A stretch of 64,000 nucleotides of DNA. It comes from Basidiobolus meristosporus CBS 931.73 (taxonomy: Eukaryota > Basidiobolomycota > Basidiobolomycetes > Basidiobolales > Basidiobolaceae). A program made the position numbers and the translations under genes. Positions 10,779 through 20,110 of this stretch are shown in pieces. The notes beneath the pieces were generated by a model that saw nothing but the letters and a program-made list of their open reading frames with translations, searched no databases and was not told where the DNA came from. The stretch spans positions 62,001 to 126,000 of the forward strand of contig MCFE01000062.1 in NCBI GenBank assembly GCA_002104905.1, given 5' to 3'. Each line of letters opens with the position of its first letter. Position 1 is the first letter of the stretch.

Positions 10779-10786
10779 TATATAAG
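10779..10786 (+). promoter_or_regulatory. TATA box of the globin gene
   Basis: TATATAAG lies 50 nt upstream of the globin ATG. This is a close match to the TATA consensus at a plausible distance for a short 5' leader. No other promoter element was recognised. Confidence 0.5.
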
Positions 10787-10835: not shown

Positions 10836-11933
10836 ATGTCTGCTGTCGAACAAACCCTTTACGAAACCCTTGGCGGGGAAGAGACCATCGGAAAAGTGGT
10901 TGATGTCTTCTACAACAAATATGTCCTCAACGATGATAGAATTAAAGATTTCTTTGTTGGTGTTGACATGGAAAAACAACGCCTCATGCAAACCAAATTC
11001 CTGGCCTTTGCTTTCGGAGGACCTGCCTTTAATGGAAAGAAGATGAACGTCGCCCATCGCCACCTCAAATTGAAGGACGAACACTTCGATGCAGTCATTG
11101 ATGATCTTGGTAAGGCTCTGCGTGATTTTGATGTGTCCGACGAGATTATTGCCAAGATCGTCGCCGTTGCGGAAACCACCCGTGACGATGTCCTGGGACG
11201 TACCGAGAAGAGTGCCCCAGTTGTTCCCGAGATGGAACATGTGGATCGTGAGCTCCTACACACTGATCCCATCTACCGTTTCCAGTACGTCGCCAAGTTT
11301 GTTGATTTCTCGGATAAGGACGTTGAGGCCATCAAGTCGGTTGCTGAACAACTTGCTCCTCTGGGCTCAGTCTTGGTTGACGCTGTTTATGACAAACTTC
11401 ACAAATTCGATGTTACTTGGGCATCAATGGCCAAGCGCCACGAGGGCTATTCCGGCCAAGTGGTTGAAAATGTCGATGATCTCGGCGTCGACAGCTCTCA
11501 GATCAAGTATCGCAAAGACATGCTTACTCGTTATATTGGTCGCCTTCTGACTAACCCATACGATGAGCGCATGATCAAATATCTTGATTGGGTAGCCAAG
11601 ATTCATACCGATATTCCCGGAAAGCAATCCAAGATCAACGTTGAATACATTCACATCTCCGCCCTTCTTGGCTTTGTCGAATCCACCTTGATTTGGGCCA
11701 TCAGCACCCTCAAACTCGAAAGAGAACACGAACTCCGCGTGATTCTTGCATTCAACAAGGTTTTGTGGTTGCAGAACGACTTCTTTGCCAAGTACTACGC
11801 TAAGGATGGCTCGGACGTTCCCAACTCGTTTGGCCTTCATGCCCACCCTCCCAAGTCCAAGTTCAGTCTCCAGAGCGCCATTATTGGTGGAGCTGTTGCT
11901 GCCATTGGTTTCCTAGTGGCTCGTCGCCTTTAA
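10836..11933 (+). CDS. Chimeric globin: truncated haemoglobin (group I) fused to a protoglobin-like domain, with a C-terminal hydrophobic tail
   Basis: One exon encodes 365 residues. Residues 5-122 are a group I truncated haemoglobin: LYETLGG at the start, FYNKYVL with the B10 tyrosine (Y26), DRIKDFF, a glutamine at E7 (Q48), AFGG, the proximal histidine in VAHRHL (H74) and EHFDAV. The E10 histidine used as sixth ligand in some cyanobacterial homologues is replaced by Met51. Residues 134-322 resemble the protoglobin/globin-sensor family: HVDRELLHTDPIYRFQY, FVDFSDKDV, then YLDWVAKIHTDIPGK, where H257 is the likely proximal ligand. Residues 347-362 (SAIIGGAVAAIGFLVA) form one hydrophobic segment before the terminal RRL, as in tail-anchored proteins of outer mitochondrial or other organelle membranes. 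The protein probably binds two haems and acts in oxygen or NO sensing or detoxification at a membrane; this is inference. No transmitter domain is present. Confidence 0.88.
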   Translation: MSAVEQTLYETLGGEETIGKVVDVFYNKYVLNDDRIKDFFVGVDMEKQRLMQTKFLAFAFGGPAFNGKKMNVAHRHLKLKDEHFDAVIDDLGKALRDFDVSDEIIAKIVAVAETTRDDVLGRTEKSAPVVPEMEHVDRELLHTDPIYRFQYVAKFVDFSDKDVEAIKSVAEQLAPLGSVLVDAVYDKLHKFDVTWASMAKRHEGYSGQVVENVDDLGVDSSQIKYRKDMLTRYIGRLLTNPYDERMIKYLDWVAKIHTDIPGKQSKINVEYIHISALLGFVESTLIWAISTLKLEREHELRVILAFNKVLWLQNDFFAKYYAKDGSDVPNSFGLHAHPPKSKFSLQSAIIGGAVAAIGFLVARRL

Positions 11934-11994: not shown

Positions 11995-12000
11995 AATAAA
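11995..12000 (+). terminator. Polyadenylation signal of the globin gene
   Basis: AATAAA lies about 62 nt after the globin stop codon in AT-rich sequence, a normal position for a eukaryotic poly(A) signal. Confidence 0.4.
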
Positions 12001-18451: not shown

Positions 18452-18905
18452 CTACCATCCTGAATAACCTGACAGACAGGTTTCAGGGCCTTGTATCAGC
18501 CCTAGAGCTTTGTACTGAAGATTGACCTTAAGTTACATACATGGAAGGCTACTGGACAAAGAATTAAGAAAATTTGGGGTTATTGTTAGCATGACTCCTC
18601 TTGCAACTCAAAGATTTCCATACAATTCTATCCTGCAATTCCAGGCTCTTGGTGATTGTTTGAGACCATATAAAAATATTTTAAGCTTGCAGACCAAATG
18701 GGGGTTATCTTGGTCAACAAACCCATCAGGCTGGTCCATATACACATCCTCATCAAGTTCTCCATTCAAATATGCAGTTTTTGCATCCATTTGATGAATG
18801 AAAAGCTTATATTTAGCTGCAATAGCCAACATCAATCTGATGGAATTAAACTTGGCTACCAGTGCAAAGGTCTCAGTATAGTCAAGTCCTTTTGTATGAG
18901 GGTAT
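18452..18905 (-). repeat. Right arm of the large inverted repeat (Copia-derived)
   Basis: This is the partner of the arm at 16901-17353. It contains the end of gag on the plus strand and the start of a minus-strand reverse transcriptase fragment. It continues beyond 18905 into Copia pol that the left arm lacks, so this side is the parent of the duplication. Confidence 0.8.
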
Positions 18906-20110
18906 CCTTTGGCCACAAGTCTTGCTTTGTATCTCTCAATTGAACCATCAGTCTTGTACTTTGTCTTAAAGACCCATCTGCATCCAGTTGATTTAAGTTG
19001 ATTGGTAATTTGACTAAGTCCCAAGTTTGATTTTCCATCAGAGCCTGATATTCTGCAGTCATTGGAGATCTCCAAATCTTTGTCTGAGGGCTATTTAGGG
19101 CCTGTTTTACAGTCTGGGGTTCATCAAGATGGACTGACTAGGCATAGGCTAAGTTGGTACCCTCATTGATATAGAAATATGGGCTATTTCTTGTCTGGTG
19201 GAATCTCCAGGCATTTGATACTGGAATGATCACTTCTGGCATATTCCTGGGCACTGATCTAGTTTTTGTCATCATCTGATGTCATTTTTTGTAAAAGTCT
19301 TGAATTTTCCTCAGGTAGCACATCCATGGACTTGATTAGCTACTTTGCATTGGTATTGTGGAGTCTGTATGCTCTACTCTCATTGCAATAGCCCAAAAAT
19401 ATGCATTTTACACTTTTGGCCCAAACTTTGGCTAATTTCTGGGTGGTTTCCTGGCATAAGATGTACACCCAAATATTCTTAGATATTCTGCACTTGGTCT
19501 GTATCCATACCATGCTTTGAGTTGAGTAGAATCACAAAGTATTCTGTTGCAATTCCTACTTCTAAGGTATGTATATATGGCAACTGATTCCACCCAAATA
19601 TCATGGGATAATTTTTGATCATGGATCATAGATCTGGCAATATCAATTATTATTCTGTTTGCATATTGTGCTACTCCATTTTGCTGTGGGGAGTATGGTA
19701 CTGTAGCCTCTTGCTTTATCCCGTGAATTTTGCAGAAGTGGATGAAGAGTTTTGAGGTATATTCTCCACCATTGTCTGAGCATATTTTCTTGATTTTTTC
19801 ACCAGTTTCTCTCTCTGCCATGGCTTTGAGCTCCCTGAACTTAGACAGAGCTTCTTCCTTTCTCTCCATGAAGTAGACCAACATGTATCTTGTATAATTA
19901 TCAATAAAAGTGATTAAATACTTCATCCCACCTAAGTACAAATTTGCATAGGTCCAAACAGATCTAAGTGAATTAGATCTAATTTTTTCTCAGTTTTAAT
20001 TAACTCAGAGCTCTTGAATGGTTGTCTGGCTTGTTTCCCATATATGCAGGCTTCACAGTGCTCCAAATTAGCTGGGGGATCATTTTTTACTCCAGATATT
20101 AGCTGATCTT
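18606..20110 (-). pseudogene. Copia Pol fragment: integrase core and N-terminal reverse transcriptase
   Basis: Read on the minus strand, the integrase core lies at about 19985-19432 with FIDNYTRY (first Asp), SDNGGEY (second Asp), PQQNGV and YGYRPSAEYLRIFGC. The third acidic residue appears to be lost: the codons read VAQYANR, while the copy near 30670 reads VAEHANR. Reverse transcriptase follows at 19075-18608 (GCRWVFKTKYKTDG, LVAKGY, MDAKTAYLNGELDE, LYGLKQSP) and stops before the YGDD active site. The upstream edge at about 20110 is a junction with a CACTA-type element. It is inactive. Confidence 0.85.

Follow-up and report, generated by a model that had tools for sequence, protein, structure and literature searches.

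Globins belong to three ancient families, F, S and T. The nitric oxide (NO) dioxygenase of fungi is normally a flavohaemoglobin, and T globins were also reported from fungi in 2012 (PMC3287990). Basidiobolus is absent from the main text of that census of fungal globins, as is globin from the main text of a paper on gene transfer in Basidiobolus (PMC7466969), and our searches of the open-access literature turned up no published combination of T and S globins. Here we describe such a combination in Basidiobolus meristosporus CBS 931.73, in a stretch of 64,000 nucleotides (contig MCFE01000062.1, positions 62,001 to 126,000; hereafter the window), of which bp 10836–11933 on the plus strand form one open reading frame (ORF) running from ATG to TAA with 365 codons, uninterrupted as stated in the original prediction made from the letters of the window. 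At the level of sequence, this ORF encodes one conserved protein composed of a group I truncated haemoglobin, a short variable linker, a fungal protoglobin and a hydrophobic end helix. Both families were already known; what is new is their joining in one protein. The earlier statement that this order of domains was not known as described agrees with our literature and protein searches, within their limited reach.

Two globin domains and a hydrophobic tail

A Pfam scan of the 365-residue protein matched PF01152 over residues 7–119 (59.5 bits, cut-off 21, E = 4.9e-16) and PF11563 over residues 148–325 (127.4 bits, cut-off 25, E = 6.4e-37), the latter being the protoglobin match whose lack the original prediction had named as grounds for giving up its second domain. 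Five families in all appeared at E up to 10, the three others lying far below the curated cut-offs, and the NCBIfam scan gave no globin match. Neither PF00042 nor a flavin- or nicotinamide adenine dinucleotide (FAD- or NAD-) binding domain was matched by Pfam in the window fusion, which thus does not have the build of a flavohaemoglobin, and no transmitter domain (kinase, cyclase or methyl-accepting chemotaxis protein, MCP) such as a globin-coupled sensor carries at its C-terminus exceeded its curated cut-off in the 365 residues or was among the five families. Nor does the chimeric protein as a whole count as a single-domain protoglobin, since its protoglobin domain follows a truncated haemoglobin.

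Comparison of the N-terminal half with solved structures by sequence gave Tetrahymena 3aq5 as the best match (E = 3.6e-25), in the alignment with which H74 lines up with the His that group I truncated haemoglobins of solved structure conserve, and Y26, Q48 and Q52 occupy distal places, which we take to be B10 (as used in the truncated-haemoglobin literature), E7 and E11, respectively. In the truncated-haemoglobin alignment, H74 was present in 63/63 rows, Y26 in 62/63 (one gap), Q48 in 57/63 and Q52 in 62/63; Y26, Q48 and H74, on which the group I assignment had originally been based, therefore stood, and Q52 is to be added to them. In the Foldseek comparison, this domain had a template-modelling score (TMt) of 0.85 and 42% identity to 3aq7 over 113 columns; modelled alone, it had a predicted local distance difference test score (pLDDT) of 91.5. 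It was predicted separately, from alignment A6, because its low confidence in the whole-protein model was due to single-domain rows being badly placed in alignment A1 (about 13–18% identity, compared with 41–57% in A3).

A single-sequence search with the C-terminal half matched no protoglobin structure, whereas a profile of the protoglobin half built from 25 relatives found the Geobacter sensor globin 2w31 (E = 5.4e-4), the conserved His of which pairs with H257, the residue earlier proposed as proximal. H257 and Y185 were both invariant in 25/25 protoglobin rows. In the same profile search HemAT (1or4) appeared at E = 0.23 beside an unrelated phosphoprotein at 0.27, so that the HemAT match alone is no evidence, and the placing of Y185 as Tyr B10 depends on one weak 4.1-bit alignment piece to HemAT. 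Fold comparison of the models, the structural check suggested at the outset, recovered both globin types, with a predicted 2-on-2 fold in the N-terminal domain and a predicted 3-on-3 fold resembling Methanosarcina acetivorans protoglobin (MaPgb) in the C-terminal one.

A hydrophobic tail was defined as 15 residues with a mean Kyte-Doolittle value of at least 1.6 past the last globin helix. The window fusion reached 2.42, 3 residues from its end, and a helix was predicted over residues 345–364, in line with the hydrophobic segment before RRL noted originally. With one C-terminal hydrophobic helix, a globin match from residue 6–7 and no evident N-terminal signal, the protein would, by sequence alone, be tail-anchored; its basic terminal residues would be compatible with a mitochondrial anchor. 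Among the best 120 of 355 matches, such a tail was found in 40/71 fungal rows (33/64 without the seven Basidiobolus rows) and in 1/37 other rows (35 with no organism given, plus two from named planctomycetes), that one row, P0079, having a Mucorales-like tail by eye; the fungal P0064 and P0065 were dropped for absence of the landmark motif, and ten of the 120 rows were in neither set. Since many fungal protoglobins carry it, the tail, although present as predicted, is not special to the chimera and seems to belong to the fungal protoglobin. It was also observed that most of P0008–P0035, which from their genus names we take to be Mortierellaceae, have a conserved aromatic C-terminus (GFFxRLWxxFF or GILTRLWxFFF type) and no hydrophobic helix, perhaps an amphipathic membrane binder.

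Related fusions and the probable origin of protoglobin-only genes

A search of the genome (89.0 Mb, 1311 contigs) revealed a second intact fusion of the same build on contig C1168, with an unbroken frame of 367 codons, and four proteins of this build are annotated in B. ranarum (366–371 residues, 77–87% identical to the query). Both domains exceeded the curated cut-offs in 6/6 fusions scanned (the window copy and five others). At E up to 0.001, the whole-protein search matched 355 of 6174 candidates; of the best 120 matches, five carried both domains, namely the query and the four B. ranarum proteins; these same five were the only matches among 165 candidates when residues 1–130 were searched against proteins of about 200–640 residues. 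A search at single-domain lengths gave 15 matches of 24 candidates, including P0122, a 111-residue B. ranarum protein resembling the first part of P0005. The search for the same order elsewhere, as had been advised, therefore yielded B. ranarum, and the fusion was not seen outside Basidiobolus in the best 120 of 355 whole-protein matches or with residues 1–130; distant fusions may be missed, since these searches depend on shared 5-residue words. A 613-residue protein of the chytrid Irineochytrium annulatum (P0066) combines a protoglobin with PF01112 and could be either a true fusion or a run-on in the annotation.

Between the window fusion and its C1168 paralogue, the proportions of differing synonymous (pS) and nonsynonymous (pN) sites were 0.70 and 0.070 in the truncated haemoglobin and 0.82 and 0.061 in the protoglobin, respectively, the linker (pN 0.26) and the tail (pN 0.24) being freer than the domains. 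Saturated synonymous sites together with low pN in both domains show that both halves have been kept under purifying selection in one frame, and the same-build paralogue with its constrained protein, together with the four B. ranarum proteins, argues that the fusion did not arise by chance. When the 200-base regions preceding the two B. meristosporus fusions were aligned locally, the score was 40.5, and 500 block shuffles reached no more than 23.0; as the two genes have in common, beyond the shuffles, an upstream block with a TATA-like element, presumably a TATA box, the truncated haemoglobin is probably preceded by a conserved promoter. A sigma-70 type promoter scan follows a bacterial model and is uninformative for a fungal gene.

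The NCBI annotation splits the unbroken C1168 frame into two proteins: P0121 ("bacterial-like globin, partial") is exactly its first 122 residues and P0006 exactly its last 234, with 11 codons and no stop between them.

Profile scans of the contigs revealed at least 12 PF11563 places and at least 15 PF01152 places, the latter a large truncated-haemoglobin set for a fungus; to the flavohaemoglobins and single-domain sensor globins that the original prediction gave for fungi, truncated haemoglobins and single-domain protoglobins are to be added. The 12 PF11563 places consisted of 1) two fusions, 2) six intact protoglobin-only frames (three on C801, two on C564 and one on C223), 3) two truncated copies (L019 and L020), and 4) two remnants (L017 and L018). 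Many of the stand-alone truncated haemoglobins (L003, L004, L005, L007, L008, L021, L022, L023 and L025) are extended at the N-terminus by a stretch bearing at least one Cys-Pro motif (CPF, CPV, CPI and CPY among them), reminiscent of haem-regulatory motifs. At L028 (C801) and L030 (C564), the protoglobin-only genes stand in tandem arrays alongside a frame of about 560–590 residues for a multi-pass membrane protein, presumably resembling a concentrative nucleoside transporter.

In eight places (the six intact solo genes, L019 and L020), HVDR is preceded by 38 residues, counted from the Met aligned with the fusion start, and this piece, such as MSAVERT...LGHDQTTRDN..., corresponds to the two ends of the fusion's truncated haemoglobin; L011 and L012 open with MFTV, not MSAV. 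NCBI model P0007 is L014 taken from a later Met, so that it starts downstream of the predicted truncated-haemoglobin remnant. Relative to the C1168 fusion, the shortened N-termini lack 97 codons, in frame, and that of L014 aligned with the fusion DNA at 25.5 (1000 codon shuffles: mean 1.4, maximum 13.5). The deletion site is not unique, in that the protein alignment omits residues 16–112 and resumes in the last truncated-haemoglobin helix whereas the DNA alignment puts the gap elsewhere; only the net 97 codons relative to C1168 are firm.

In the protoglobin tree (39 rows, seven of them trimmed by a cruder rule, and P0098 with only 55 residues), five of the six intact solo genes were included, L012 being left out as a near copy of L011; all five grouped next to C1168 within the clade of Basidiobolus fusions (100/96; intervening forks 98/85, 94/89 and 91/77), and the Basidiobolus clade (100/100) adjoined Mortierellaceae (98/94). 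The remnants and the nesting among fusions point to fusion first and deletion later. The simplest reading would thus be that the fusion is ancestral in Basidiobolus and that the truncated haemoglobin was later cut from one lineage, which multiplied; the sequence comparisons place the fusion before the B. meristosporus/B. ranarum split. In the truncated-haemoglobin tree, the six fusions formed one group with P0122 inside (100/97) and stood with the solo Basidiobolus and Entophlyctis proteins and with P0126, a row without a name; 36 other rows, either bacterial or unnamed, were separate from these (99/97). This tree drew on 10 of the 13 solo own-genome places (all but L024, L026 and L027) and on 25 of the 80 bacterial loci, a 26th having been discarded because its sequence contained a stop; midpoint-rooted, it settles neither donor nor direction.

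An operon origin, with a bacterial protoglobin beside a truncated haemoglobin and later fused to it, was rejected, as no neighbouring protoglobin was found at E up to 10 around the best 80 of at least 452 bacterial truncated-haemoglobin loci, with at most 4 kb on each side (604,625 bases), bounds that make this negative a weak one; the home-made protoglobin profile found 6/6 protoglobins in the control and not the adjacent truncated haemoglobin.

Proposed function and alternatives

A six-frame, exon-by-exon search for the PF00042 globin found none in the 89-Mb genome; the same search was positive in 3/14 control genomes. The usual fungal flavohaemoglobin may therefore be absent from this genome, although introns could hide one. 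In truncated haemoglobins, a pocket with TyrB10 and GlnE11 tends to retain O2, release being moderate to very slow (PMC4720485), globin turnover requires a reductase (PMC3287990), membrane association may aid reduction by membrane reductases (PMC3820574), and MaPgb, a homodimer, carries out peroxynitrite isomerisation and nitrite reduction (PMC4020757). On account of the O2-holding pocket, the literature on reductases and membranes, the lack of a PF00042 match and the chemistry of MaPgb, we tentatively favour the view that the protein is a tail-anchored two-haem NO/O2 scavenger that faces the cytosol and stands in for flavohaemoglobin, a sensor being the main rival. In this scheme, 1) the C-terminal helix would insert the protein, most likely into the mitochondrial outer membrane, with both globins facing the cytosol, 2) the truncated haemoglobin, with Tyr B10, Gln E7 and Gln E11, would hold O2 tightly and oxidise NO to nitrate, 3) a putative membrane reductase would re-reduce it, 4) the protoglobin would serve as anchor, probably as dimeriser, and as a second haem for NO, nitrite or peroxynitrite, and 5) the fusion would replace the flavohaemoglobin not detected in this genome. 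The relay or balance of O2 and NO chemistry at an organelle surface, put forward originally, is plausible.

Several points weigh against a scavenger. The six-frame search could miss a flavohaemoglobin divided into small exons; 31/71 fungal rows, 28 of which are Mortierellaceae, have no hydrophobic tail by our rule; and the mutual orientation of the two domains is uncertain in the whole-protein model (predicted template-modelling score, pTM, 0.64). The six intact protoglobin-only genes, which lack the truncated haemoglobin, still look constrained (solo protoglobins versus C1168: pS 0.48–0.50, pN 0.060–0.064), so that the two halves are not always needed together. In addition, protoglobins belong to the sensor-globin lineage, and PMC3287990 gives the structure and function of fungal sensor globins as not known in 2012.

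A bolder reading, which we consider unlikely, is that the first known union of T- and S-family globins represents a membrane-anchored, coupled two-haem enzyme that evolved in Basidiobolus to replace flavohaemoglobin; one haem might convert NO while the other clears nitrite or peroxynitrite, or the two might exchange electrons, either of which we likewise regard as unlikely. A membrane-bound O2/NO sensor, whose protoglobin would read the gas while the truncated haemoglobin sets its local level or reports redox to partners, is also unlikely, given that the scan for known transmitter domains described above gave none over a curated cut-off. An O2 store or facilitator at the membrane, serving respiration or an oxygen-using enzyme, is distinctly improbable: two unlike haems at one membrane could broaden the O2 range, but TyrB10/GlnE11 pockets release O2 moderately to very slowly (PMC4720485), which is poor for delivery. 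That the protoglobin does the work and the truncated haemoglobin, joined by accident, is being lost would be consistent with the N-terminal shortening of 8/12 protoglobin places by 97 codons relative to C1168, with truncated-haemoglobin remnants at both ends, and with the Leu that replaces Gln E11 in one B. ranarum copy, P0005; between the two fusions, however, the two halves are under similar constraint (pN 0.070 in the truncated haemoglobin versus 0.061 in the protoglobin) and the pocket residues of the former are kept, and we find such a passenger very doubtful. Two genes misread as one, with the cell making two proteins, would fit the separate NCBI entries P0121 (122 residues) and P0006 (234 residues) for the C1168 copy but are exceedingly improbable, as the frame is unbroken in both copies, the listed pieces lie 11 codons apart in the same frame, P0121 is labelled partial, each of the four B. 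ranarum proteins is annotated as a fusion, linker lengths differ by whole codons and so short a linker would leave little room for a promoter, and this reading, like an assembly artefact, was rejected on the C1168 paralogue, the B. ranarum proteins and the codon statistics.

The natural T+S fusion, selected in several copies until synonymous saturation, offers a ready two-haem protein for testing globin cooperation, and the hydrophobic C-terminal tail on many fungal protoglobins is a little-noticed feature. If Basidiobolus is truly without flavohaemoglobin, it would be a natural experiment in fungal NO handling. The recording of the C1168 fusion as two proteins is a warning for annotation.

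Features of the locus and comparison with known systems

The features are collected in the table below, in which the AATAAA was read by eye and may, from the consensus, be a polyadenylation signal. About 7 kb downstream, at window positions 18608–19941, two minus-strand frames were observed that by eye resemble parts of the reverse transcriptase and the integrase of a copia-type retroelement.

Table. Positions of the two-globin gene and its elements in the window
Feature	Position	Strand	Basis
TATA-like element, in block common with C1168 paralogue	10779..10786	+	50 bases before ATG; local alignment
Whole fusion ORF, 365 residues plus stop	10836..11933	+	open frame; close relatives
Group I truncated haemoglobin domain, residues 7–119	10854..11192	+	PF01152, PDB 3aq5, Foldseek, isolated-domain model
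Codon Tyr26, B10, distal	10911..10913	+	3aq5 alignment, row conservation
Codons Gln48 (E7) to Gln52 (E11), distal pair	10977..10991	+	3aq5 alignment, row conservation
Codon His74, proximal F8	11055..11057	+	63/63 rows
Linker, residues 123–143, in frame in fusions compared	11202..11264	+	variable, pN 0.26
Protoglobin domain, residues 148–325	11277..11810	+	PF11563
Codon Tyr185, likely B10	11388..11390	+	25/25 rows; B10 placing from weak 4.1-bit HemAT piece
Codon His257, proximal F8	11604..11606	+	25/25 rows; 2w31 alignment
Hydrophobic C-terminal helix, residues 345–364, basic end RRL	11868..11927	+	mean Kyte-Doolittle 2.42 over 15 residues; predicted helix
AATAAA, possible polyadenylation signal	11995..12000	+	about 60 bases past stop; read by eye

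The N-terminal domain shares the 2/2 fold, Tyr B10, Gln E7/E11 and His F8 with group I truncated haemoglobins (Tetrahymena 3aq5 and Mycobacterium HbN 1idr), whereas the solved members listed are single-domain chains of 116–164 residues and the one described here is fused before a protoglobin and a membrane tail. The C-terminal domain is like the protoglobins of Mortierella, Mucor, Rhizopus and Blastocladiella, many of which also have a hydrophobic tail; the named fungal rows outside Basidiobolus were 41–62% identical over 39–65% of the query among the best 120 of 355 matches. The listed fungal protoglobins differ in carrying no PF01152, and most of those from Mortierellaceae have a short aromatic C-terminus with no hydrophobic helix. 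The M. acetivorans protoglobin (2veb), with 17% identity, is archaeal and has no second globin, and its Trp B9 would correspond to Val184 here if Y185 is B10. The T-globin chimera of Allomyces macrogynus is likewise a larger fungal protein that includes a group I truncated haemoglobin, but the partner of this domain in that 1129-residue protein is a leucine-rich-repeat region, not a globin (PMC3287990).
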